This document shows, in pieces, positions 41,104-55,978 of a DNA stretch of 64,000 bases. Origin of the DNA: Streptomyces sp. NBC_01217 (GTDB lineage Bacteria; Actinomycetota; Actinomycetes; Streptomycetales; Streptomycetaceae); NCBI RefSeq assembly GCF_035994185.1, contig NZ_CP108538.1, forward strand, positions 8,559,501-8,623,500, given 5' to 3'. Each line of letters opens with the position of its first letter. Position 1 is the stretch's first letter. The position numbers were made by a program, and so were the translations under genes. The notes under the pieces are model-generated. The model saw nothing but the letters and a program-made list of their open reading frames with translations. It had not been told where the DNA came from and ran no database searches.

Positions 41104-41805
41104 ATGGCCGCATCGTTCGTCACACATCGCGCCCTCGACGGCGGGACGTATTACCTGGAGGGCGACCTCGACCTCCGGTCGCCGAGCACGTCGGCCGTCG
41201 AGGTGGTGGCCGGTGGCCGACTGGTCGAGTTCACCGCCGGGCCGGCCTCTTTGGGGGACGATGTCGCCGCTTCCCTGGGCATCGGGTCACCCGAATCCGA
41301 ACTCACCTTCCAGAAGGGCACACTGCGCGTCTTCCGGTCGATCGAGCGCGAGCCGCGCTCGGGGCTCGTGGAGCGGCCGTCGCTCGTCGTGTGGCGCGGT
41401 GAGCGCCACGCACTCGTGACCCGGCTGTACGGCCTGAGCGTGGCCGAGGTGCTCGGGCTGCTCCGGTCGGTGCGCATCGCGGAGAGCGAGTCCGGGCTCA
41501 CGCTCCAGCCCGATCCGTCGGCCGGAAGCGCCTTCGCGCGACCCGCGACGGTGATCAAGGAGGTGCCCGGCCTCGGGCTGCTGGAGCTGTCCCGGCGGAC
41601 GAGGGAGCACACCGCCCAACTGCCGCCCTGGAAGGGCGTGGCGGTCGCGTCCGGTGAGCTGTTCCGCGACACGCTCTCCGACGGCAGCCCGTTCTTCGTG
41701 CTCTCCTCCACCGAGATCTGGGCCACGCTGGTGCCGCTGGCGTCGACCCCCGTCGAGCGGGTGCCCGAGCTCGTCGGGCGGCTCGCGCTGCGGCACACCG
41801 GGTGA
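41104..41805 (+). CDS. Hypothetical protein, first gene of Mau-like operon
   Basis: A 233-residue soluble-looking protein that I do not recognise. It has no signal peptide or membrane helices. Visible features are an N-terminal THRALDGGTYYLEGDLDLRS, a region GERHALVTRLYGLSVAEVLGLL and a C-terminal LSSTEIWATLVPLAS. ATG 41104 is six bases after GGAGG. It is 8 bases upstream of the MauE-like gene and probably co-transcribed with it from the promoter at 41026-41054. In an operon for redox maturation of an exported Cys-rich protein it could be an assembly factor, but nothing in the sequence proves that. Confidence 0.75.
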   Translation: MAASFVTHRALDGGTYYLEGDLDLRSPSTSAVEVVAGGRLVEFTAGPASLGDDVAASLGIGSPESELTFQKGTLRVFRSIEREPRSGLVERPSLVVWRGERHALVTRLYGLSVAEVLGLLRSVRIAESESGLTLQPDPSAGSAFARPATVIKEVPGLGLLELSRRTREHTAQLPPWKGVAVASGELFRDTLSDGSPFFVLSSTEIWATLVPLASTPVERVPELVGRLALRHTG

Positions 41806-41812
41806 GCCGGCG

Positions 41813-42448
41813 GTGATCGGCTTCTACGGCGGGCTGACCGCCTCGATCGTCCTACTGAGCCTGCTCGTCGGCGCGGGCTCTCACGCCGCCCGTCCGGCTG
41901 CCCTGGGTGAGGCGCTGCGGGTGCACGGCGTGCTGGGCCCGCGGTCGCGCCGGTACGCGGCCGTCGTCCTGCCTTTCGCGGAGGGCGCTTTGGGGGCAGC
42001 CGGCGCGGCCGCGCTGCTGACGGGTCACCAGCGGGGGCTGCAGGCCGTACTCGCCGCGTCGACCGCCCTCTTCGGGCTCTACGCCGGCTACTCGCGGCAC
42101 GTCCTCGCCCTCGGCCGCGGGGGGCCATGCGGCTGTTCGCGCCAGGATGTGCCCCTGAGCCGCTGGGTGACCCGGCGGGCCACGGCCCTCGCCGGACTCG
42201 CGTCGGCCGGCGCGGTCATCGGGGGGGCCGGCCCCGTACGGCTCTCCGCAGCGGGGCTGATCACACTGATGCTCGCAGCGGCTGCCTGCACCGTGCTGCT
42301 GTGGTCCCTGCCTGCCGCCATGCACGAGCCGGCCGCAGCATCCTTCCACCTGCCGACCAGGGCCACTGTTCACCAGCCGGCCGACGCCACCGTGCACCGG
42401 ACTGCCGAAGGAGTGTCGACGCGATGGACTTCACCACCAGTGCTGTGA
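41813..42448 (+). CDS. MauE/DoxX-like redox-associated membrane protein
   Basis: Integral membrane protein of about 211 residues with four predicted helices, starting GTG 41813. The order of helices, a conserved-looking segment (AAVVLPFAEGALGAAGAAALL) and the GGPCGCS pair (Cys 106 and 108) followed by a DVPLSRWVTRRA segment match MauE, the membrane partner of MauD needed for disulfide-rich methylamine dehydrogenase small subunit maturation. The last 40 residues are hydrophilic. It overlaps the MauD-like gene by 25 bases. The function here is inferred as electron or disulfide transfer across the membrane for the Cys-rich exported protein two genes downstream. Confidence 0.8.
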   Translation: MIGFYGGLTASIVLLSLLVGAGSHAARPAALGEALRVHGVLGPRSRRYAAVVLPFAEGALGAAGAAALLTGHQRGLQAVLAASTALFGLYAGYSRHVLALGRGGPCGCSRQDVPLSRWVTRRATALAGLASAGAVIGGAGPVRLSAAGLITLMLAAAACTVLLWSLPAAMHEPAAASFHLPTRATVHQPADATVHRTAEGVSTRWTSPPVL

Positions 42449-42969
42449 TCGCCTCGTGGGCGGCGATCGCGCTGCTCGCGCTGGTCGTCTCGGGATTGAT
42501 CAGGCAGGTGCACCAGCTGTCACGTACGCAGCCGCACCGCCCCGGGCGGGTGGGAATCGCCCCCGGCGCACCGGCGCCCGGGCTCGATGAGGCCCGGCTC
42601 GATCCGGCCGGGCTCGACGGCCTCCTGACGCCGGGCCGCGCCGGGCTGCTGCTCTTCCTCGACGCCGACTGCCGCACCTGCGGCGAGGTCTTCGCCGAGG
42701 CCACTGCCTGGAAGGTCCGCCGGGGCGCCGCCGCCCCGCAGGTGCTCGGGCTCTACGCGGGCGCCGGGCCGCAGACCGATGAAGGCGCCGTCCCGGTCAG
42801 GGATCACCGCCCGGAGCTGTTCGCGGCCTACGACATCCCCGCCACTCCCTATGCGGTGGCCATCGATCAGGAGGGCCGGATCGCGCGTTCGGAGCCGCTC
42901 GGTTCATCCACCGCGCTGCTGCGGTTGCTCGACGACATCCAGCCCGCAACGGCGAGGAAACTGCCATGA
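42424..42969 (+). CDS. MauD-like membrane-anchored thioredoxin-fold protein
   Basis: A 181-residue protein with one N-terminal membrane helix (VIASWAAIALLALVVSGLI) and an extracytoplasmic thioredoxin-like domain (LLLFLDADCRTCGEVFAEA). The active pair is Cys83-Arg-Thr-Cys86, and a cis-Pro region (IPATPYAVAID) is visible. MauD proteins supply or isomerise disulfides for the methylamine dehydrogenase small subunit. ATG 42424 follows AAGGAG and lies inside the end of the MauE-like gene, and its own stop overlaps the next start (ATGA at 42966-42969). This tight coupling ties it to the 12-Cys protein that follows. Confidence 0.85.
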   Translation: MDFTTSAVIASWAAIALLALVVSGLIRQVHQLSRTQPHRPGRVGIAPGAPAPGLDEARLDPAGLDGLLTPGRAGLLLFLDADCRTCGEVFAEATAWKVRRGAAAPQVLGLYAGAGPQTDEGAVPVRDHRPELFAAYDIPATPYAVAIDQEGRIARSEPLGSSTALLRLLDDIQPATARKLP

Positions 42970-43883
42970 CTTCACTGGACGACGTGCCCACGCTGCGCCG
43001 CTCCGGGAGCGGCAGCCTTCGCTCCCGGACCGGGCGCGGGGCCCTGCCATCCTTCGCACCGTCCAGGCGCACAGTGCTGCAGGCGGCGACCGCCGTGGGC
43101 TTCGCCGCGCTCGGGGTGTTCTCCGCCGCCCGGCAGGCGTACGCCGACGGCTACGACATCTGGACCGGTGCGTGCCCGAGTTACGCCGAGGACCACAACT
43201 GCTCCCCGGGCTGCGGGCCCAGCACCATCTATGCCGACGCGTGCGTGACATCGGGGACGAACACCGGCTTCCACCGGTCGGACGGTGTCACCTGGACCCT
43301 GCGGCCCAACCAGTGCTACGCGGGCACCTACGACGGCTGGCTGTGGCGCTACAGCGCGGCCTGCGGCAGCTGCGGCTGCGGTATCGAGCGGCGCTGCCAC
43401 GACGGGTACCGCAACACCGGCTCCGGCTGGGTGAAGTCCATCTGCCGCTGGACCACCGACTGCGACTGCCCCGGCTCCATCAGCTGGCCGACCATCAGCC
43501 GCGGCGCCACCGGGCCCGACGTCCACACCATCCAGCACCTGCTCACCCACCACGGTCAACCGACGGATGCCGACGGCATCTTCGGACCGGACACCGAGGC
43601 ACAGGTCGAGGAGTTCCAGTCGGCGAACGGACTCAGCCCCACGGGCAGCGTCAGCCCGGCCACCTGGCCGGTACTGGTCGTCACCGTGCGCCAAGGAGAC
43701 GTGAACGATGCCGTACGCGGCGCGCAGCGGCAGCTCAACAAGCACGGCTCCGCACTGACGGTCGACGGCAACTTCGGTTCGCTCACACGCCAGGCCGTCG
43801 TCTCGTTCCAGTCCCTGCACGGCCTGACCGCCGACGGCGTGGTCGGCCAGAACACCTGGCTCACGCTGACCGGGACGGTCTAG
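42966..43883 (+). CDS. Tat-exported 12-Cys protein: MADH-small-subunit-like domain fused to two peptidoglycan-binding repeats
   Basis: 305 residues. An N-terminal twin-arginine signal (SRRTVLQAATAVGFAALG, cleavage near AYA-60) is followed by a Cys-rich domain (residues 61-170) with exactly 12 Cys (70, 79, 83, 93, 117, 133, 136, 138, 144, 160, 166, 168), then two PG_binding_1 repeats (about 178-238 and 241-302, with DADGIFGPDTEAQVEEFQ and TVDGNFGSLTRQAVVSFQ). The Cys-rich part resembles the methylamine dehydrogenase small subunit, as I remember it: 12 Cys in total, W110 before C117-Tyr, 16 residues from C117 to C133, and a second Trp (W162) 52 residues after W110, close to the 51-residue spacing of the TTQ tryptophans. 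It follows MauE- and MauD-like genes, but no MauB or MauG is present. Cofactor formation is speculative. Confidence 0.8.
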   Translation: MTSLDDVPTLRRSGSGSLRSRTGRGALPSFAPSRRTVLQAATAVGFAALGVFSAARQAYADGYDIWTGACPSYAEDHNCSPGCGPSTIYADACVTSGTNTGFHRSDGVTWTLRPNQCYAGTYDGWLWRYSAACGSCGCGIERRCHDGYRNTGSGWVKSICRWTTDCDCPGSISWPTISRGATGPDVHTIQHLLTHHGQPTDADGIFGPDTEAQVEEFQSANGLSPTGSVSPATWPVLVVTVRQGDVNDAVRGAQRQLNKHGSALTVDGNFGSLTRQAVVSFQSLHGLTADGVVGQNTWLTLTGTV

Positions 43884-44072
43884 ATGAGCGAGTCCGGCCG
43901 TCCCGCGGCCCGGCCGAGCGGCGGCTGTGCCGTACGGGTGCTGCTCACCGATCCCGCCCTGCCTGTGGCGGCCCTGGGGATCGCGGCGATCGCCGCCGCC
44001 CTCTACACCCCCATGCTGACCTGGGCGATCACCGGCGGTCTTGCCGGCTACTCGCTCTCCGGCTCCGTTTGA
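43884..44072 (+). CDS. Small predicted membrane protein
   Basis: A 62-residue protein beginning right after the stop of the 12-Cys gene (ATG 43884). A polar N-terminus (MSESGRPAARPSGG) is followed by two hydrophobic segments (LPVAALGIAAIAAALY and WAITGGLAGYSLSG). It ends at TGA 44070-44072. The same frame stays open beyond this TGA through TRNSAFALASPGWRATYRQA into the next protein, so the two may be halves of one gene. No family is recognised. Confidence 0.6.
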   Translation: MSESGRPAARPSGGCAVRVLLTDPALPVAALGIAAIAAALYTPMLTWAITGGLAGYSLSGSV

Positions 44073-44144
44073 ACGCGTAACAGCGCGTTCGCGCTGGCCT
44101 CGCCAGGTTGGCGGGCAACGTACAGACAGGCACTGGTCCTCGGA

Positions 44145-44648
44145 GTGTTCACCATCGGCCTGCTGGCCGGCGGGGTGCTGACGGCCGGGGTGCTGTGGCT
44201 CCTGTCCGGTCTCTTCACACCGCTCCCGGCCGGCGTGCGGCAAGGGCTGATCGTGGCCGTCGCACTGCTAGCCGCGCTGCGTGACGCGGGCAAGCTGCCA
44301 CTACGGCTGCCGCAGAACGCCCGGCAGATACCGCAGGACGTTCTGCGCCGCCATCTGGCGCGCGGCGCCCTGCAGTTCGGCTTCGAGCTCGGCACGGGTG
44401 TGCGTACCTATGTCTCGGCGAGTGCGCCGTACGCGATGGCGGTCGCGGTGCTGCTGTCCGGTGGCTCCTACGCGCCCGCCCTGGCCGCCGGACTCGGCTT
44501 CGGAGCGGGCCGGGCACTCACTCCGGCTCTGCGCAGGCTCTCCGGAAACGGGGAGCGCTGGGACGACCTGCTCGCGCGGCGGCTGAGCGGCATGACCGTC
44601 CTGTGCTCCGCGCTGATCGCCGCCGTCGCCCACGGGGTCCTCCGGTAG
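44145..44648 (+). CDS. Predicted membrane protein of the Mau-like operon
   Basis: 167 residues from GTG 44145, with about four hydrophobic segments (FTIGLLAGGVLTAGVLWLLSG, LIVAVALLAALRDAG, MAVAVLLSGGSYAPALAAG, MTVLCSALIAAVAHG) and a conserved-looking soluble loop (LPQNARQIPQDVLRRHLARG, LQFGFELGTGVRTYVSASAP). I do not recognise the family. The ribosome site is weak, and the frame is continuous with the upstream small protein except for one TGA. It is probably the last gene of the MauE/MauD operon, and a role in assembly of the exported Cys-rich protein is inferred only from position. Confidence 0.65.
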   Translation: MFTIGLLAGGVLTAGVLWLLSGLFTPLPAGVRQGLIVAVALLAALRDAGKLPLRLPQNARQIPQDVLRRHLARGALQFGFELGTGVRTYVSASAPYAMAVAVLLSGGSYAPALAAGLGFGAGRALTPALRRLSGNGERWDDLLARRLSGMTVLCSALIAAVAHGVLR

Positions 44649-44893: not shown

Positions 44894-45628
44894 ATGTTGA
44901 GGCGTACGATCCAGCTCGTTCTGAGTATTGTCATGATCATGACTGCAACTGTGGGTGGCATGCTGGCCACGGCCGCCCCGGCCCAGGCCGACGAGTGCTA
45001 CACCTGGGGCCGCACCCTGTCCGAGGGCATGTCGGGCTCCGACGTGACTCAACTGCAGATCCGGGTGGCCGGGCATGTGGACTACGGCGAGATCCTCTCC
45101 GTCGACGGCAACTTCGGCCCACGGACCAAGGCCGCGGTCACCAAGTTCCAGCAGGCGTACGGGCTGGCGGCGGACGGCGTCGCGGGTTCCCAGACGTTCA
45201 GCAAGATCTACGCGCTGCAGGACCCGGACTGCACCCCCATCCACTTCACCTACGCCGAACTGAACAAGTGCAACTCCGACTGGTCCGGTGGTGCGGTCAG
45301 TGCCGCGACGGCCAAGTCCAACGGCCTGCGCACGATGTGGAAGCTGGAGGCCCTGCGGCACGCCATGGGCGACGTGCCGATCACCGTGTCCAGCGGATTC
45401 CGCTCGAATTCCTGCAACAGCGCGGTGGGCGGCGCCTCGAACAGCCGGCACCTGTACGGTGACGCCGCCGATCTGGTCGGCAGCCCGTCGTTCTGCCAGC
45501 TCGCCCAGCGGGCCCGTTACCACGGCTTCGGCGGCATCTTCGGCCCAGGCTACCCGGACCACAACGACCACACCCACGTGGACGGACGCACCAGCCGCTC
45601 CTGGTCCGCGCCCAACTGCGGCGTCTGA
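44894..45628 (+). CDS. Zinc D-Ala-D-Ala carboxypeptidase (M15, Streptomyces albus G type)
   Basis: Exported enzyme of 244 residues. It has a signal peptide (IQLVLSIVMIMTATVGGMLA, cleavage near AQA-DE), a peptidoglycan-binding domain (CYTWGRTLSEG, SVDGNFGPRTKAAVTKFQ) and a peptidase M15 domain whose zinc site matches the S. albus G DD-peptidase: SRHLYGDAADL (His and Asp) and HNDHTHVD (second His). The flanking TYAELNKCNSDWSGG and SSGFRSNSCNS segments, with paired Cys, also match. It cleaves the terminal D-Ala from wall peptides. ATG 44894 follows GGAGG. A very strong hairpin follows the stop. Confidence 0.95.
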   Translation: MLRRTIQLVLSIVMIMTATVGGMLATAAPAQADECYTWGRTLSEGMSGSDVTQLQIRVAGHVDYGEILSVDGNFGPRTKAAVTKFQQAYGLAADGVAGSQTFSKIYALQDPDCTPIHFTYAELNKCNSDWSGGAVSAATAKSNGLRTMWKLEALRHAMGDVPITVSSGFRSNSCNSAVGGASNSRHLYGDAADLVGSPSFCQLAQRARYHGFGGIFGPGYPDHNDHTHVDGRTSRSWSAPNCGV

Positions 45629-45653
45629 CCGGCGAGTCCCCACGCGCACAGCA

Positions 45654-45696
45654 GTCCGCTTCCCCCGGGCCGGCCTCCGGCCCGGGGGAAGCGGAC
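45654..45696 (+). terminator. 20-bp perfect hairpin terminator after DD-carboxypeptidase
   Basis: The stem starts GTCCGCTTCCCCCGGGCCGG (45654-45673), has a CCT loop and a perfect complement to 45696. It has no U tract, as is common in Streptomyces. Confidence 0.9.
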
Positions 45697-45746
45697 CCGC
45701 ACCGCCCTCCCTCGCTCTCCCCCCGCATTCGAGTAGGAGTGCCCTG

Positions 45747-47501
45747 ATGTCGTCCCGCATCCCCTGGCGCGCCCGCGCCGGAACGGCCCTGCTGGCGGTG
45801 CTCGCCGGTATCGGCGCGTTCGCCGTCCCCGGCCCCGCCGCGGCCGCCGCCCCGCCCGAGAAGAGCCGACAGACCGTCACCTACCACGGCTACCGCATCG
45901 AGGTGCCCGCCGACTGGCAGGTGGTCGATCTGACCGAGAACCCGCGCGCCTGCCTCCGGTTCGACAGACCCGCCGTCTACCTGGGCGAGCCCGCCGACCA
46001 GAACGACTGCCCCGCCGGAGTCGTCGGCCGTACGGCGGGCATCGTCGTGGAGCCCATCACCGCCCGCTCCGCCGGCCAGGCGACGGCGGCGACCGCGCGG
46101 ACACAGCGCGGCAAGGCCACCGCCCCGTCCCCCGTGTCCAGCAACGACACCATCCAGATCGCGGTCGAGGACGTCGGTGTCCTCGTGACCGCCGCCCACA
46201 CCCCGGAGACCGAGAGCCTGGTGCGCGGCGTTCTCGCCTCGGCCGAGCTCACCAAGGGCGCCGAGCGCACCGAGCTGCCCCGCGCGGCCGGGCAGTCCGA
46301 CGCCACCCTCCTGGCCGCGGCCGGGCCACAACCGGGCAGCTATCTGGGCAAGGGCTTCGACGCCTGCACCGCGCCCTCGCAAGCCGCCATGAACGCCTGG
46401 CAGGCGAGCTCGCCGTACAGCGCGGTCGGCGTCTACATCAGCGGCTCCTTCCGCGGCTGCGCCCAGCCGAATCTGACGGCGAGCTGGGTGACCAGCCAGA
46501 CCAACAACGGATGGCGTCTGTTCCCCATCGACGTCGGCCGCCAGGCGCCGTGCACCAGCTACTCGCTGAAGATGTCCACCGATCCGGCCACGGCCAGGTC
46601 CCAGGGCGTCACCGCGGCGGCCGACGCCATCACCGCCGCGTCGAACCTCGGTATCCCGGCGGGCAGCGCCATCTACAGCGACATCGAGGCATACACCTCC
46701 ACGGCCTCCTGCAAGGCGGCCGTGCTGTCGTACCTCTCCGGCTGGACCGAGCGGCTGCACAGCAGCGGCTATCTGTCGGGTTTCTACTCCAGCGCCGCCT
46801 CCGGCATCAAGGACGCCGCCGCCGAATACAACAACAGCGCCTACACGCGGGTCGACCACCTCTTCTACGCGTGGTGGAACGGCGCCGCCGACACCAACAC
46901 CGGTTCCTACGTGCCGTCCACCTACTGGTCCAGCCACCAGCGGATCCACCAGTACGCGGGCGAGGTCACCGAGTCCTACGGCGGCTACTCGATCAACATC
47001 GACCGCGACTACCTGGACGTGGGCAACGGCACCACCCCGCCCACGCCCACCTGCACCGGGGCGAACCTCGACTTCACCGCGTACACCACCGTCCAGAGCG
47101 GCTCGACCGGAGACCAGGTCAAGGCCGCCCAGTGCCTGCTCAAGGCCGCCGGCTTCGACCCGGGTACGCCGGACGGGGTCTTCGGCCCCGGCACCGCCAC
47201 CGCCGCCAGGAACTTCCAGACCAGCAAGGGACTCACTGCGGACGGTGTGGTCGGCCCGAAGACCTGGACCGCCCTGCTGTCCCGCGGAACCACCCCCACC
47301 GTCCAGAACGGCTCGACGGGAGAAGCCGTCACCCGGCTGCAACGCGCCCTGACCGCCGCGCTCGGCCGGACGGTGGCCATCGACGGCGTCTTCGGCTCGG
47401 GCACCGCCCAGGCCGTACGCGACTACCAGTCCTCGCGCGGACTGGGCGCCGACGGCGTCGTCGGCCCCGCCACCTGGGGCGCCCTCCAGTCGGGAAAGTG
47501 A
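45747..47501 (+). CDS. Exported DUF1906 (glycoside-hydrolase-like) protein with two peptidoglycan-binding domains
   Basis: 584 residues. It has a signal peptide (residues 1-35, ending AAAAAP), an N-terminal region of about 165 residues of unknown type ([19 protein letters not shown], resembling a lipoprotein-like beta domain), a DUF1906 / Rv2525c-like TIM-barrel domain ([66 protein letters not shown]) and two PG_binding_1 repeats at the C-terminus ([32 protein letters not shown]). DUF1906 proteins are presumed wall-acting hydrolases; the acidic pair in SDIEAY and NIDRDY would be the catalytic side. The start is ATG 45747 after TAGGAG. It stands between two hairpins with other wall enzymes on each side. 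Confidence 0.9.
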
Positions 47502-47547
47502 GCAGGAAGGTGAGCCGAGAAGTGAACAGGAAAGTGGGGCAGGAATC

Positions 47548-48486
47548 GTGAGACGACTCGTACGCATCATCACGCTGTTCACCGCGGTGGCGGGCCTGCT
47601 CTTCGGACTGGGCGTCCCCGCGCAGGCCTTCCCGCAGGCCGCGTTCCCGCTGACGAGCAACGGCAGCCGGGGCTCCGACGTCGTCGCGCTGCAGCACCTG
47701 CTCGCCGCGCACGGCCGCTCCGTTTCGGTGGACGGCGTCTTCGGCTCGGGCACGCACAGCGCGGTGGTGGGCTTCCAGCAGTCCAAGGGCCTGGCCGCGG
47801 ACGGCATCGTCGGGCCCGCCACCTGGGGCGCGCTCGCAATCACCGTACGACAGGGCGACAACGGGCCGGCGGTGACGGCCGTCCAGTCGCTGCTCAACGC
47901 CAAGCGGGGCGCCGGCCTCTCCGTCGACGGGGCCTTCGGACCCGCCACCGACTCCGCCGTCCGCACCTTCCAGTCCCATGCGGGAATCGGCGCGGACGGC
48001 GTCGTCGGGCCGGCCACCTGGCGGAACCTGCTGTGGCACTACGAGAACATCGACTTCGGCGCCGGCACGATGTGCGCACAGAGCCCCGACGGCAACGCGG
48101 GCGCCCACTGGGCGACAGCCGGCGCCGTCGGTCAGCTGGAGGCCGCCGCCGCCACCTTCGCCACCACCGGGAACGGCAGACTGCCGGTCGGCGACGCGGG
48201 CTTCGAGCACGGCGGTGACATACCCGGCCACGCCAGCCACGAGGTCGGGATGGACATCGACGTGTGGCCGGCCCGCACCGACTCGGCGCAGTGCACCGCG
48301 GGGCGGATCACCTGGCAGTCGAGCACCTACGACCGCGCGGCCACCCGCAGGCTCGTGCAGGAGATCCGGGCGAAGGCACCCGGCCATGTCGAGCTGATCT
48401 TCTTCAACGATCCGCAGCTGATCTCGGAAGGGCTGACCACGAGTTACCCGAACCACGACAACCACCTGCACATCCGCTACAGGTAG
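47548..48486 (+). CDS. Exported murein endopeptidase (MepA/M74-like) with two peptidoglycan-binding domains
   Basis: 312 residues from GTG 47548. It has a signal peptide ([16 protein letters not shown], ending AQA), two PG_binding_1 repeats ([16 protein letters not shown] and [16 protein letters not shown]) and a C-terminal metallopeptidase domain with the LAS-type zinc pattern: [15 protein letters not shown] (His and Asp) and [10 protein letters not shown] (His). This matches penicillin-insensitive endopeptidase MepA, which cuts wall cross-links, better than M15 carboxypeptidases. It is 46 bases after the DUF1906 gene, in the same orientation and probably the same operon, and is followed by a bidirectional terminator. 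Confidence 0.88.
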
Positions 48487-48541: not shown

Positions 48542-49585
48542 TCAGCGGATCAGCAGTGTGGTGCCCGCCACGGCGGGCACCAGTTCCCCGATGACCGGAT
48601 GTCCGGGTATCTCCCCGGCGACCAGCAGCCCGCCGGAGGTCTGCGCGTCGGCAAGCAGGTGCAACTGGTTCTCGCTCGCCCGACCCGCGTCCAGGTGCGG
48701 ACGCACCCAGTCGAGATTGCGCCGGGTGCCGCCGCTGAGGTACCCGGCCCGCAGGGACTCCCGGGCGCCGTCGAGAACGGGAACGGCGGCGGCGTCCACC
48801 ACGGCCGTGACGCCGCTGGCCCGGGCCAGCTTGTGCAGATGGCCGAGCAGCCCGAATCCGGTCACATCGGTGGCACACACGGCGCCGGCCTCCAGGGCAG
48901 CGGCGCCGGCCTTGTCGTTGAGCGCCGCCATGCTTGCGACGGCGTGGGCAAAGACCTCGCCCGTCCGCTTGTGGCGGTTGTTGAGTATTCCGACGCCCAG
49001 CGGTTTGGTCAGGGTCAGCGGCACACCCGGCCTGCCTGCGTCGTTGCGCAGCAGCCGGTCCGGATCCACCAGGCCGGTCACAGCCATTCCGTAGAGCGGT
49101 TCCGGGCTGTCGATGCTGTGGCCGCCGCCGACGAGGCAGCCGGCGCTGCGGGCGATGTCGAGCGCCCCCGCCAGGACCTCCCGGGCCAGCTCCGCGGGCA
49201 GTACGTCACGGGGCCAGCCCAGCAGGTTGAGCCCGACGACGGGGCGGCCGCCCATCGCGTAGACGTCGGACAGGGCGTTGGCCGCGGCGATCCGGCCCCA
49301 GTCGCGGGCGTCGTCGACAACAGGCGTGAAGAAGTCCGCCGTTGACACCAGGGCGGTGCCGTCACCGGTGCGCACCACCGCGGCGTCGTCGCCGTCGTCG
49401 AGTCCGACCAGCAGCCGGTCCTCGTCGCCGCCCGGCGCCTGTCCGGAGTTCCGGGACGGCAGCAGCCCCGCGACCATCGCCTCCAGCTCCCCCGGAGGGA
49501 TCTTGCAGGCGCAGCCGCCGCCGTGTGCGTACTGCGTCAGCCGTACGGGCGCGGCGGGTTTGGCAGCGGGGCCAACAGACGTCAT
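48542..49585 (-). CDS. selD: Selenophosphate synthetase (selenide, water dikinase)
   Basis: 347 residues, normal for SelD. It makes selenophosphate from selenide and ATP. The active-site loop HGGGCACKIPPGEL has Cys at the position that is Sec or Cys in the family, with the following Lys. DDGDDAAVVRTGDGTALVSTADFFTPVVDD and WGRIAAANALSDVYAMGGRP are split family landmarks, and GGHSIDSPEPLYGMAVTG and TDVTGFGLLGHLHKLA are also conserved. ATG 49585 lies 56 bases from the divergent tRNA-Sec gene. With selA and selB it forms a complete selenocysteine locus. Confidence 0.97.
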   Translation of the reverse strand: MTSVGPAAKPAAPVRLTQYAHGGGCACKIPPGELEAMVAGLLPSRNSGQAPGGDEDRLLVGLDDGDDAAVVRTGDGTALVSTADFFTPVVDDARDWGRIAAANALSDVYAMGGRPVVGLNLLGWPRDVLPAELAREVLAGALDIARSAGCLVGGGHSIDSPEPLYGMAVTGLVDPDRLLRNDAGRPGVPLTLTKPLGVGILNNRHKRTGEVFAHAVASMAALNDKAGAAALEAGAVCATDVTGFGLLGHLHKLARASGVTAVVDAAAVPVLDGARESLRAGYLSGGTRRNLDWVRPHLDAGRASENQLHLLADAQTSGGLLVAGEIPGHPVIGELVPAVAGTTLLIR

Positions 49586-49641
49586 ACGACGATCATTTCA
49601 CCTCTTGCCCCCGCAGGGTGCGGGGACCACAATCTTGCTCC

Positions 49642-49734
49642 GGAGGCGTTGGGCGGGCTGGTGCCCCTCCCGATCTTCAAAATCGGTGTGGTCCGGAAAC
49701 CGGGCCAGGCGGGTTCGATTCCCGTCCGCCTCCG
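49642..49734 (+). tRNA. selC: tRNA-Sec (anticodon UCA)
   Basis: A 93-nt tRNA of the long type. The acceptor is GGAGGCG (49642-49648) pairing with CGCCTCC (49727-49733), with discriminator G. The anticodon stem is CCGAT/ATCGG (49670-49674 / 49682-49686) around loop CTTCAAA with anticodon TCA at 49677-49679. There is a long extra arm (GTGTGGTCCGGAAACCGGGCC region) and a T arm GGGTTCGATTCCC. CCA is not encoded. It lies directly upstream of selA, as expected for selC. Confidence 0.96.
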
Positions 49735-49749
49735 CTGACTTCGATCGGG

Positions 49750-51078
49750 GTGGCGCGGGTGGCGGACGAGATTCGGCAGCCGCCGGCGGACACCCGGCGG
49801 CAGGTGCCGAGCACCACGGTGCTGCTCGGCGATCCCCGGCTGAGCGAGGCTTCCGCACGGCTGGGCAGACCCATCGTCAAGGCCGCGGTCGCCACCGCCC
49901 AGCAGGCCGTACGCGACGGACGGATCATCCCGGGCGACGCGGTCCACGCCGCTCTTGCCGCGCTCCCCGCACGCGCGGCCGGACTGAACCCCGTACACAA
50001 CGCCACGGGCGTGGTGCTGCACACCAATCTGGGACGGGCCCCGCTGTCGCGGTCCGCGCTGGAGGCGATGGCGGCGGCCGGCGGATACACGGACGTCGAG
50101 CTGGACCTGAGCAACGGCAGACGGGCGCCGCGCGGCCGCAGCGCCATGGCGGCCCTCCGGGAAGCGGTGCCGGCCGCGGAGGCCGTGCACGTGGTCAACA
50201 ACGGAGCCGCCGCTCTGGCGCTTGCAGCGGTGACGCTGGCACCGGGGCGCGACATCCTGCTCAGCCGGGGCGAGTTCGTGGAGATCGGCGACGGCTTCCG
50301 GATACCCGAACTGCTGACCTCCTGCGGCGCCCGGATACGCGAGGTCGGCACCACCAACCGGACCCGTCTCGGCGACTACGCGGACGCCGCCGGTCCGGAC
50401 ACCGGCTTCGTCCTCAAGGTGCACCCGTCGAACTTCACCGTGAGCGGCTTCACCCGGGGAGTGGACGTCGGGGAACTGGCGTCGCTGGGCCTGCCCGTGG
50501 TGGTCGACATCGGCTCCGGCCTCCTCGCGCCGGATCCGGTGCTGCCGCACGAGCCGGACGCGGCCACGGCCCTGCGTGCCGGGGCCACGCTGGTCACCGC
50601 CAGCGGGGACAAGCTGCTCGGCGGTCCGCAGGCGGGGCTGGTCCTCGGCCGGGCCGCCGTCGTGGAGCGGATGCGCCGCCATCCGCTGGCCCGCGCCCTG
50701 CGCGTGGACAAGTTCACCCTGGCCGCGCTGGAAGCGACACTGCGCGGTCCCGAGCCACCCGTGCACGCAGCCCTGCACATGCCACTGCCGCAGCTGCGTA
50801 CACGCACGCTGCGCCTGGCCGAAGGCCTGGCACGTCGAGGTCTGGACGTCCGCGTCGTGCCCTGCGAGGCGGTGGTCGGAGGAGGCGGCGCCCCCGGGAC
50901 CGCTCTGCCGTCCTGTGCGCTCAGCCTCCCCGACGACCTGGCGGCTCCGCTGCGCACCGGTGAACCGGCCGTGCTCGGAAGGGTGGTGCGCGGCCGACTG
51001 CTGCTGGACCTGCGGTGCGTACCGCAGGCGTGCGACGACGACATCCTCGCCGCGGTGCTGCGCGCGGCGGGGCGGTGA
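49750..51078 (+). CDS. selA: L-seryl-tRNA(Sec) selenium transferase
   Basis: PLP enzyme of about 442 residues that converts Ser-tRNA-Sec to Sec-tRNA-Sec. It is recognised by SEASARLGRPIVKAAV, NPVHNATGVVLHTNLGRAPL, HVVNNGAAALALAAVTLA, GTTNRTRLGDYADA and the PLP-binding SGDKLLGGPQAGL (Lys near residue 288). The start is uncertain between GTG 49750 and GTG 49759, both just after the tRNA-Sec gene. It is followed two bases later by selB, so selC-selA-selB form one transcription unit divergent from selD. Confidence 0.96.
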   Translation: MARVADEIRQPPADTRRQVPSTTVLLGDPRLSEASARLGRPIVKAAVATAQQAVRDGRIIPGDAVHAALAALPARAAGLNPVHNATGVVLHTNLGRAPLSRSALEAMAAAGGYTDVELDLSNGRRAPRGRSAMAALREAVPAAEAVHVVNNGAAALALAAVTLAPGRDILLSRGEFVEIGDGFRIPELLTSCGARIREVGTTNRTRLGDYADAAGPDTGFVLKVHPSNFTVSGFTRGVDVGELASLGLPVVVDIGSGLLAPDPVLPHEPDAATALRAGATLVTASGDKLLGGPQAGLVLGRAAVVERMRRHPLARALRVDKFTLAALEATLRGPEPPVHAALHMPLPQLRTRTLRLAEGLARRGLDVRVVPCEAVVGGGGAPGTALPSCALSLPDDLAAPLRTGEPAVLGRVVRGRLLLDLRCVPQACDDDILAAVLRAAGR

Positions 51079-51080
51079 TC

Positions 51081-52871
51081 ATGCGGGTCATCGCGACAGC
51101 CGGGCACGTCGACCACGGCAAGAGCACACTCATCCACGCGCTGACCGGCACCCACCCCGACCGGCTGGCGCAGGAGCGGCGCCGTGGCCTGACCATCGAC
51201 CTGGGCTTCGCATGGACGGATCTGCCATCGGGCGAACGCCTCGCGTTCGTCGACGTCCCGGGACACGAGAGGTTCGTCCCCACCATGCTGGCCGGCGTGG
51301 GGCCCGTGCCCGCCGTGCTGTTCGTCGTCGCCGCCGACGAGGGCTGGAAGCCGCAGTCCGCCGAGCACTTGGCCGCCGTGGACGCCCTGGGCGTACGGCA
51401 CGGACTGCTCGCCGTCACCCGCTGCGATCTGGCCGACCCCGGCCCCGCCACGGCGCAGGCACGGGACCGGATCCGGTCCAGCACCCTCGGCGGCGTCGAG
51501 GCCGTGGCCGTCAGCGCCCGCACCGGCGCGGGCCTCGCCAAGTTGCGCGCCGCCCTCGACCGGCTGGCCGCGCGGCTGCCGGACGGGGACGCCGACTCCC
51601 CGGTGCGGCTGTGGATCGACCGGTCCTTCACCGTACGAGGCAGCGGTCTTGTGGTCACCGGCACGCTCGGAGCGGGGCGGATCCGCAGCGGCGACGCCCT
51701 GGTGACCGCCCGCTCAGGCCGTTCTGTGCGCGTCAGGTCGCTGCAGGCGCTCGGCGAGGAGACCGGCCTGGTGCGGGCCACCGCCCGGGTCGCCGTCAAC
51801 CTCCGGGGACTTGAGAAGGATTCGACGGGCCGCGGCGATGCCCTGCTCACGCCCGACAGCTTCCTCCCCTGCCTGCGCTGCGACGTGCGCGTACACGGGG
51901 CAGCACCGGCCGCGGCGCTGCCCCGCACCGCCGTCGCCCACATCGGCTCGGCGGCCGTGCCGGTACGCGTACGGCCGCTCGGCGAGGACATCGTCCGGCT
52001 GACCCTGCCGGCGCCACTGCCACTGCCGCTGCGCATCGGTGACCGCGCGGTGCTGCGCGATCCCGGCCTGCGGCGGGTGCTGGCCGGGCTGACGGTGCTC
52101 GATCCCCAGCCACCGGAACTGCGGCGCCGCGGTTCCGCGGCACGGCGGGCGGCCGAGCTGGGCGACGCTCGCGGCACTCCGGGCGAGGCGGCCGAGCTAC
52201 GGCGCCGACTGCTGGTCAGACGCGGTGAGCTGACCGCGATGGGGGTGGCCGTGTGCTCCGCGCCGGTCGCGGACGACTGGCTTGCCGACCCCGCCCACTG
52301 GAGCGCCCTGCGCGCCCGGCTGGCCGAACTGGTCACCGCGTACCACTCCCAGCGGCCCACCGAGGAGGGCATGCCGGTGGAGGCCGCTCGGCACCGTCTG
52401 GGGCTGCCTGCCGCCTCCCTGGTTGAGGCGCTGGTCACGCCGCCCCTGCGGATGAGCCGCGGGCGCGTGACCGCCGGGCCCGACGGCCTGCCCGCCGACG
52501 TGGCGGACGCGGTGCAGCGTCTCACCACCGAGCTCGCCGACCGGCCCTTCGCCGCCCCCCACGCACAGCGGCTCACGGAACTCGGCCTCGGCCGGCGCGA
52601 GCTCGCCACGGCGGTCCGCCACGGAGCGGTACTGCGGCTCGCGGAGCAGGTGGTGCTGCTGCCGGACGCCCCCCGGCTGGCGGCCGACCGGCTGAGCGAA
52701 CTCGACCAGCCGTTCACCGTGGGAACGGCGAGCCGCGCCCTGGACACCACCCGACGCGTCACCATTCCCCTGCTGGAGCACTGCGACGGTCAGGGCATCA
52801 CCCAGCTGCTTCCCGACAAGCGCCGCCGGTGCGCGCCCCGCAGTCGGCCGTCGTCCCTCACCGCACCGTGA
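51081..52871 (+). CDS. selB: Selenocysteine-specific elongation factor
   Basis: 596 residues from ATG 51081. The N-terminal GTPase has GHVDHGKSTLIHALTG (P-loop), RRGLTIDLGFAWTD (switch), DVPGHERFVPTMLAG (G3) and TRCDLADP (G4). EF-Tu-like beta domains follow, and then C-terminal winged helices ending FTVGTASRALDTTRRVTIPL and LLPDKRRR, which bind the SECIS RNA hairpin. It delivers Sec-tRNA to UGA. The length is normal and all GTPase motifs are intact. Its presence implies at least one selenoprotein in the genome; none is clear in the window. Confidence 0.97.
   Translation: MRVIATAGHVDHGKSTLIHALTGTHPDRLAQERRRGLTIDLGFAWTDLPSGERLAFVDVPGHERFVPTMLAGVGPVPAVLFVVAADEGWKPQSAEHLAAVDALGVRHGLLAVTRCDLADPGPATAQARDRIRSSTLGGVEAVAVSARTGAGLAKLRAALDRLAARLPDGDADSPVRLWIDRSFTVRGSGLVVTGTLGAGRIRSGDALVTARSGRSVRVRSLQALGEETGLVRATARVAVNLRGLEKDSTGRGDALLTPDSFLPCLRCDVRVHGAAPAAALPRTAVAHIGSAAVPVRVRPLGEDIVRLTLPAPLPLPLRIGDRAVLRDPGLRRVLAGLTVLDPQPPELRRRGSAARRAAELGDARGTPGEAAELRRRLLVRRGELTAMGVAVCSAPVADDWLADPAHWSALRARLAELVTAYHSQRPTEEGMPVEAARHRLGLPAASLVEALVTPPLRMSRGRVTAGPDGLPADVADAVQRLTTELADRPFAAPHAQRLTELGLGRRELATAVRHGAVLRLAEQVVLLPDAPRLAADRLSELDQPFTVGTASRALDTTRRVTIPLLEHCDGQGITQLLPDKRRRCAPRSRPSSLTAP

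Positions 52872-53523: not shown

Positions 53524-55978
<2,455 letters not shown>

Follow-up and report, generated by a model that had tools for sequence, protein, structure and literature searches.

A conserved actinobacterial operon with a predicted selenocysteine form of MauF beside an exported cysteine-rich protein

Results

A conserved five-gene operon

We analysed a 64,000-nucleotide stretch of Streptomyces sp. NBC_01217 (contig NZ_CP108538.1, positions 8,559,501 to 8,623,500 of the forward strand; hereafter the window). Positions 41104–44648 of the window hold a five-gene operon comprising a gene without family assignment (gene one), mauE, a mauD-like gene, a gene for a cysteine-rich exported protein and a fifth gene, termed selMauF, which carries an in-frame UGA proposed to encode selenocysteine (Sec; Table 1). 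The genes overlap or nearly touch. The mauD-like gene starts inside mauE, an ATGA spanning the mauD stop opens the Cys-rich gene, and selMauF begins immediately past the TAG stop of the Cys-rich gene. An initial annotation of this DNA had described the first four genes as a compact operon, which our comparisons bear out. Its interval ended at 44648, but the last gene (43884–44648), which is the most important part of the interval, was left undiscussed.

A single scan of 84,980 species genomes yielded 79 loci (from the best 80 of 86 relatives), located in Streptomyces, Micromonosporaceae, Stackebrandtia, Actinophytocola, Actinomadura, Actinoallomurus and others, with identical gene order throughout. 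Gene one is present in 75 of the 79, mauE in 77 and mauD in 78, the misses falling at contig ends; the fifth gene is present in 78, locus L023 being without it. Conservation of the operon is far beyond chance.

No known family matched gene one in Pfam and NCBIfam searches, and profile comparison with MauB and MauJ gave no similarity. It occupies the position held by MauB in mau clusters and is conserved at every locus whose sequence spans its place. The initial annotation had correctly recognized the next two genes as MauE-like and MauD-like, the latter with the motif Cys83-x-x-Cys86. MauE exceeds its Pfam cut-off and matches MauE of mau clusters by profile (98.2%); its CGC motif is found in 77 of 78 sequences, the sole miss being a contig-end fragment. 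The MauD-like protein scores only 19.5 bits against the NCBIfam equivalog TIGR02661 (cut-off 188.6), but profile comparison with nine Proteobacterial MauD sequences gave 98.9%, which makes homology clear despite the sub-cut-off score, and CxxC is present in 79/79 sequences. Hence, although not filed as an equivalog, the protein is clearly predicted to work like MauD.

Table 1. Features of the operon and of the linked selenocysteine genes (positions in the window).
Feature	Position	Strand	Description
Gene one	41104..41805	+	233 aa, no Cys; family without assignment
mauE	41813..42448	+	PF07291, 40.9 bits (cut-off 27); membrane protein, CGC motif
mauD-like	42424..42969	+	Membrane-anchored thioredoxin-like protein, C83-x-x-C86
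Cys-rich exported protein	42966..43883	+	RR signal, 12-Cys domain, two PG_binding_1 repeats
selMauF	43884..44648	+	Polytopic membrane protein, 254 residues, proposed Sec at 63; annotated only from about 44145
In-frame UGA	44070..44072	+	Proposed Sec63 codon; TGA in the window and 78/78 loci
Smaller proximal hairpin	44081..44096	+	Between UGA and main hairpin; 89.7% of cells paired; only suggestive
SECIS-like hairpin	44099..44115	+	Loop AGGUU at 44105–44109, +33 to +37 after UGA
selD	48542..49585	-	Selenide water dikinase; TIGR00476, 377 bits (cut-off 125); no stop in frame, Cys form by eye
tRNA-Sec	49642..49733	+	Anticodon TCA; RF01852, 73.9 bits (cut-off 47); ARAGORN tRNA-SeC
selA	49768..51078 (start provisional)	+	TIGR00474, 397 bits (cut-off 268)
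selB	51075..52871 (start provisional)	+	TIGR00475, 271 bits (cut-off 242)

The fifth gene is predicted to be read through a UGA codon

The selMauF sequence appears as two open reading frames (ORFs) of 62 and 167 codons in one frame, the TGA closing the first. Both pieces lie in one frame with the TGA between them in 77 of 78 loci, the other (L055) being frameshifted later. Protein conservation runs through the UGA (in the window, GGLAGYSLSGSV-UGA-TRNSA..SPGWR) and includes codons ahead of the annotated start. Over the 135 nt past the UGA the selMauF frame is free of stops in 79/79 sequences, whereas the other two frames are stopped in 38/79 and 30/79. Conservation of the frame across the UGA therefore requires some kind of read-through, and the fifth gene is predicted to encode a single protein interrupted by UGA rather than two proteins.

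Database entries label the fifth gene as a truncated 'hypothetical protein', and a true stop separating two proteins would be in keeping with them. Searching databases with the read-through sequence gave 506 relatives at E ≤1; all of the 120 listed correspond to the second piece only (54–72% of the read-through sequence), and this piece has a GTG of its own. Against a true stop, protein-level conservation in the same frame extends over the 24 codons between UGA and GTG, and distant relatives with a Cys codon at the site are continuous. We regard two separate proteins as very improbable.

selMauF accompanies selenocysteine machinery

The genes selD, selA and selB and a tRNA-Sec gene lie together at 48542–52871, 4–8 kb from the UGA gene and within the same window. 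Across the genus, selMauF is found in 12 of 199 genomes. A tRNA-Sec was counted as strong from 70 bits upward; below this the scores drop to 51, and the line was placed at this gap because all 199 genomes have some weaker match. By this definition 39 of the 199 genomes have a strong tRNA-Sec (56 exceed the Rfam cut-off of 47), and these 39 include all 12 selMauF genomes (Fisher p 7e-10, ignoring kinship). The distance from the gene to the tRNA-Sec is about 4–5 kb in 10 of the 12; it is 391 kb in G172, and in G050 the two are on separate contigs. For 21 of the 79 loci, ARAGORN placed a tRNA-SeC within the 8-kb flanks. For the other 58 loci, 30 genomes were checked and 29 have a tRNA-Sec of at least 66 bits, including the genome of L023, the locus without the fifth gene. 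Three genomes (G598, G603 and G607; loci L036, L043 and L054) have two tRNA-Sec matches above 70 bits each, perhaps reflecting two sel clusters, one per selenoprotein.

A SECIS-like hairpin follows the UGA

Downstream of the UGA lies a hairpin resembling a selenocysteine insertion sequence (SECIS). Its sequence, CUCGCC-AGGUU-GGCGGG, is nearly invariant, third codon positions included. All six tested pairs are formed in 76 of 79 sequences, with a mean of 5.9 pairs compared with 3.0 in synonymous shuffles. The bacterial SECIS model, as quoted in PMC13188914, has a G among the first two nucleotides of the loop, a spacer of 16–37 nt and a minimum free energy of −7.5 or lower; with a spacer of 32 nt and −8.9 kcal/mol, the window hairpin fits the model as quoted there. 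Among seven distant UGA genes (described below), six place a 5-nt loop precisely at +33 on stems that differ in sequence, and in the seventh no hairpin was caught by a simple scan. In a distant relative with TGC at the site (L118, genome G329), a GGUCGC loop at +30 caps a small hairpin that is possibly a remnant SECIS.

selMauF is related to MauF at its only conserved cysteine

MauD, MauE and MauF are required for the small subunit of methylamine dehydrogenase (MADH). Profile alignment with hhalign matched the selMauF family to MauF at 95.7% (E 9e-9). Seven distant members matched MauF at 99.7% (E 4e-26) and the selMauF family at 99.0% (E 9e-18); controls gave 15% for reversed MauF and at most 1.1% for ten column-shuffled versions. 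Across 15 members, including three MauF, the Sec/Cys site is the only column with an invariant Cys or Sec. Most distant members carry SP[U/C]G at the site, like Paracoccus MauF (STWSPCGYSS), whereas the window has SGSV-U-TRNS. By these alignments selMauF is homologous to MauF, with Sec predicted to replace its only conserved Cys.

Screening 396 Actinomycetota genomes by profile revealed the family in 11, that of the window included. The site codon in the other 10 is TGA in seven, TGC in two and masked in one. The codon tracks the Sec machinery, since tRNA-Sec scores are 59.7–84.5 bits in the seven UGA genomes and reach only 48.7 (just above the Rfam cut-off) and 46.4 bits in the TGC genomes; these two values and that of the masked genome (43.7) are in the range of second-tier matches in the genus survey. 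The TGC-bearing relatives are continuous genes. The conserved frame, which demands some read-through, would also be met by near-cognate reading of the UGA as Trp or Cys. Such decoding is highly unlikely, as distant relatives choose their codon according to tRNA-Sec presence, sel genes and a SECIS-like hairpin are linked to the gene, and MauF has Cys, not Trp, at the site. Insertion of Sec at residue 63 is thus strongly indicated by sequence, and the fifth gene appears to be an unannotated selenocysteine form of MauF.

The distant genes also keep Mau-type company. MauD is near in seven of the eight genomes with enough flank (G242, G457, G255, G212, G229, G370 and G498; not G329), a count that leaves out G243 and G422, both cut by contig ends. 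MauE was detected nearby by profile in G242, G457, G212, G229 and G498; Pfam recognized it in G255, and inspection by eye in G370. An adjoining Cys-rich protein, seen at least in the genomes that follow, has 20–24 Cys in G255, G457, G242 and G370 and 10 Cys in G229 and G243, while G498 has the Cys domain of the operon described here. The 20–24-Cys proteins resemble MauA (96%, E 4e-9), largely in the leader. In these neighbourhoods the constant element is MauF together with MauD, in most cases also MauE, next to an exported Cys-rich protein, and not a quinone cofactor.

Exported proteins with 10–24 Cys adjoin putative Sec-MauF genes at six loci of distant Actinomycetota (L132, L131, L130, L136, L135 and L134). 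The Sec site is masked at L131, and the Cys-rich proteins of L130 and L136 bear long C-terminal repeats.

The cysteine-rich protein is probably multi-disulfide and has no profile match to the MADH light chain

As the initial annotation had stated, the Cys-rich protein of the window has 12 Cys and two peptidoglycan-binding repeats. For the Tat export that it had assigned, the Pfam TAT_signal score is 13.3 bits, below the cut-off of 22.7, but R34-R35 is invariant among 30 Cys-rich proteins. In 80 sequences (the window and the 79 loci) the number of Cys per domain is always even, 12 in 73 and 10 in 7, as expected from full disulfide bonding. Ten Cys positions are invariant in 80/80, and C138 and C168 are each Cys in 36; Actinomadura-type sequences place Cys at other positions. 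These patterns suggest that the exported protein is probably multi-disulfide. In Actinomadura-type homologues the Cys domain is present but the peptidoglycan-binding repeats are lacking, so these repeats do not belong to the core of the family. What is borne out of the initial description is a redox module of the MauE/MauD type next to an exported and probably multi-disulfide protein that, in the window, bears wall-binding repeats; its MADH and TTQ element is not supported.

The same annotation had likened the protein to the MADH small subunit, with its tryptophan tryptophylquinone (TTQ). The spacings on which this was based are correct (C117-Y118 with 16 residues to C133, and W110 and W162 separated by 52), and other resemblances are 12 Cys and an RR leader, a MauE-MauD-substrate order like that of mau and aau clusters, and the MauA-like 20–24-Cys proteins of the distant operons. 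The Trp pair expected for TTQ is nevertheless not conserved. Position 110 is W in 37/80, Y in 39/80 and F in 4/80, and position 162 is W in 41/80, the remainder being K, Y, H, A or V. Two other tryptophans, W125 and W127, are invariant. Comparison of the Cys-rich family with the MADH light chain, a check that the annotation had proposed, was run between profiles and gave 0.5% (E 0.11). PF02975 had no match in the protein at E 10 and none in the genome, although control genomes also lacked a match above cut-off, making this a weak control. The MauG family (PF03150) is absent from the genome, in agreement with the annotation, while the same search was positive in two control genomes. A MauB search of the genome gave no match, but no control genome matched either. 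A predicted model of the Cys domain had a pLDDT of 60, and structure comparison of this low-confidence model gave no meaningful match. Because there is no PF02975 match, no MauA profile similarity and no MauG family, a TTQ-bearing subunit is, as judged from these searches, not tenable, and we give it next to no credence.

selMauF genomes seldom have a Sec formate dehydrogenase

Formate dehydrogenase, defined by TIGR01553 at E 1e-40, was not found in 9 of the 12 operon genomes of the genus, including that of the window, where weaker molybdoenzyme matches all fell below the cut-off and none contained a stop. The other three have either the Cys form (G037 and G156) or the Sec form (G172). By comparison, operon-free members of the genus with tRNA-Sec have a formate dehydrogenase with UGA in 5/5 genomes compared. 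As the usual Sec-family formate dehydrogenase was not found in these nine genomes, selMauF may be what keeps Sec decoding in them. Our search for known selenoproteins covered formate dehydrogenase only, and we make no claim that selMauF is the sole selenoprotein.

Neighbouring genes

Between the operon and the sel genes, positions 44894–48486 encode a secreted M15 peptidase with peptidoglycan-binding repeats and two more secreted ORFs with such repeats, judged by eye. An ORF just past selB (53747–55978) is presumably a KatG-like catalase-peroxidase.

Discussion

We propose, with a probability of about three in four, that the operon is a Sec-dependent Mau-type maturation module in which Sec-MauF, MauE and MauD mature the Cys-rich protein. 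The ribosome, guided by the hairpin just past the UGA together with the SelB and tRNA-Sec encoded nearby, would insert Sec63 at the site of the one conserved Cys in MauF of methylamine users. Within the membrane, Sec-MauF would form a thiol-disulfide chain with MauE (through its CGC motif) and MauD (CxxC), Sec63 exchanging with thiols of MauD or MauE. The likely client of this chain is the exported Cys-rich protein, whose five to six disulfides would be made or corrected with electrons flowing either outward (reducing or isomerizing) or inward (oxidizing). In this lineage, peptidoglycan-binding repeats would then anchor the matured protein in the wall. The pathway is envisaged without any cofactor derived from tryptophan.

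Several observations weigh against this proposal. Near the UGA, dN/dS in four segments is 0.47, 0.36, 0.62 and 0.57, only moderately below 1, and a search with the segment around the UGA returned 160 candidates of which none reached E ≤10, giving no continuous relative. The codon is always UGA in close relatives, exchange with Cys being confined to distant members. For the hairpin, the observed stem is reached by 22% of synonymous shuffles, low variation leaves weak covariation support, and a simple hairpin scan chose a different pairing in the window sequence. Genome G594 (locus L030) has the UGA gene with a tRNA-Sec of only 47 bits, reflecting either an incomplete assembly or a real exception. 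Neither Foldseek nor profile comparison established a CcdA-like fold for selMauF. Finally, both the identity of the client and the direction of electron flow are inferred.

This last point leaves room for a true Sec-MauF whose module performs other chemistry, such as handling of sulfur, selenium or metal on the Cys-rich protein, or of peroxide at the wall. CcdA-type carriers have two conserved chalcogens, and the single one in selMauF would suit such a role. However, the partners carry CxxC and CGC motifs, the Cys set of the client is even and fully conserved, and distant operons again pair these partners with exported Cys-rich proteins of other kinds. We therefore consider other chemistry rather unlikely.

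The proposed maturation module has most in common with the mau clusters of Paracoccus denitrificans and relatives, which share homologous MauF, MauE and MauD, an adjoining Cys-rich protein with an RR leader and the same E-D-substrate order. It differs in having Sec for Cys in MauF, no MauG and a gene one that is not MauB, and its client is not detectably a MADH light chain and bears peptidoglycan-binding repeats. The Sec formate dehydrogenase of Streptomyces shares the UGA, the tRNA-Sec and a SECIS-like hairpin with a GGU-type 5-nt loop, but it belongs to an unrelated cytoplasmic-type family, its loop, in a hairpin that likewise fits the bacterial SECIS model, is at +19 rather than +33 (GGUCU in 5/6 and AGUCU in 1/6 of the genus), and its Sec form co-occurs with selMauF rarely (1/12 operon genomes). 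CcdA/DsbD carriers are likewise polytopic membrane proteins. Foldseek ranked CcdA (5vkv) fourth with a probability of 0.51, the highest among the matches listed though below significance, and one selMauF relative touches DsbD_2 at E 0.061, which is not significant. Unlike these carriers, selMauF has one conserved chalcogen. TsoB, a rhodanese/DsbD fusion-like selenoprotein with a UxxxxU motif (Table 1 of PMC13188914), is by description also of the membrane thiol-disulfide type; TsoB has two Sec and a rhodanese part.

MauF is not among the prokaryotic selenoprotein families in Table 1 of the 2026 catalogue (119 families by the catalogue's own count; PMC13188914) or in the selenoprotein table of PMC9312934, and passages of the deep-Sep paper give other families (PMC12013277). 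NCBIfam of June 2026 had no match for selMauF, and within the reach of our literature searches no account of it came up. On the alignments presented here, selMauF is predicted to be a new selenoprotein family, and its operon a Sec-dependent, MADH-free version of the Mau maturation genes.

An earlier survey reported that no selenoproteome known at the time lacked both FdhA and SelD, and credited these with sustaining Sec decoding (PMC1794560); a later one described Sec users without known selenoproteins (PMC5029168). For some Actinomycetota selMauF would be a concrete answer to the latter. On balance, we favour the view that a set of Actinomycetota keeps the whole of Sec decoding chiefly for Sec-MauF, which would drive thiol-disulfide folding of exported Cys-rich proteins, the one in Streptomyces being wall-bound. 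If so, there would be a second reason, besides formate dehydrogenase, for selenium use in aerobic actinobacteria, and MauF-MauE-MauD would serve maturation in general, with methylamine dehydrogenase as one of its clients. To our knowledge the chemistry of MauF is unresolved, and selenium at its one conserved Cys would offer an experimental way into how the three Mau proteins bring multi-disulfide proteins to maturity.

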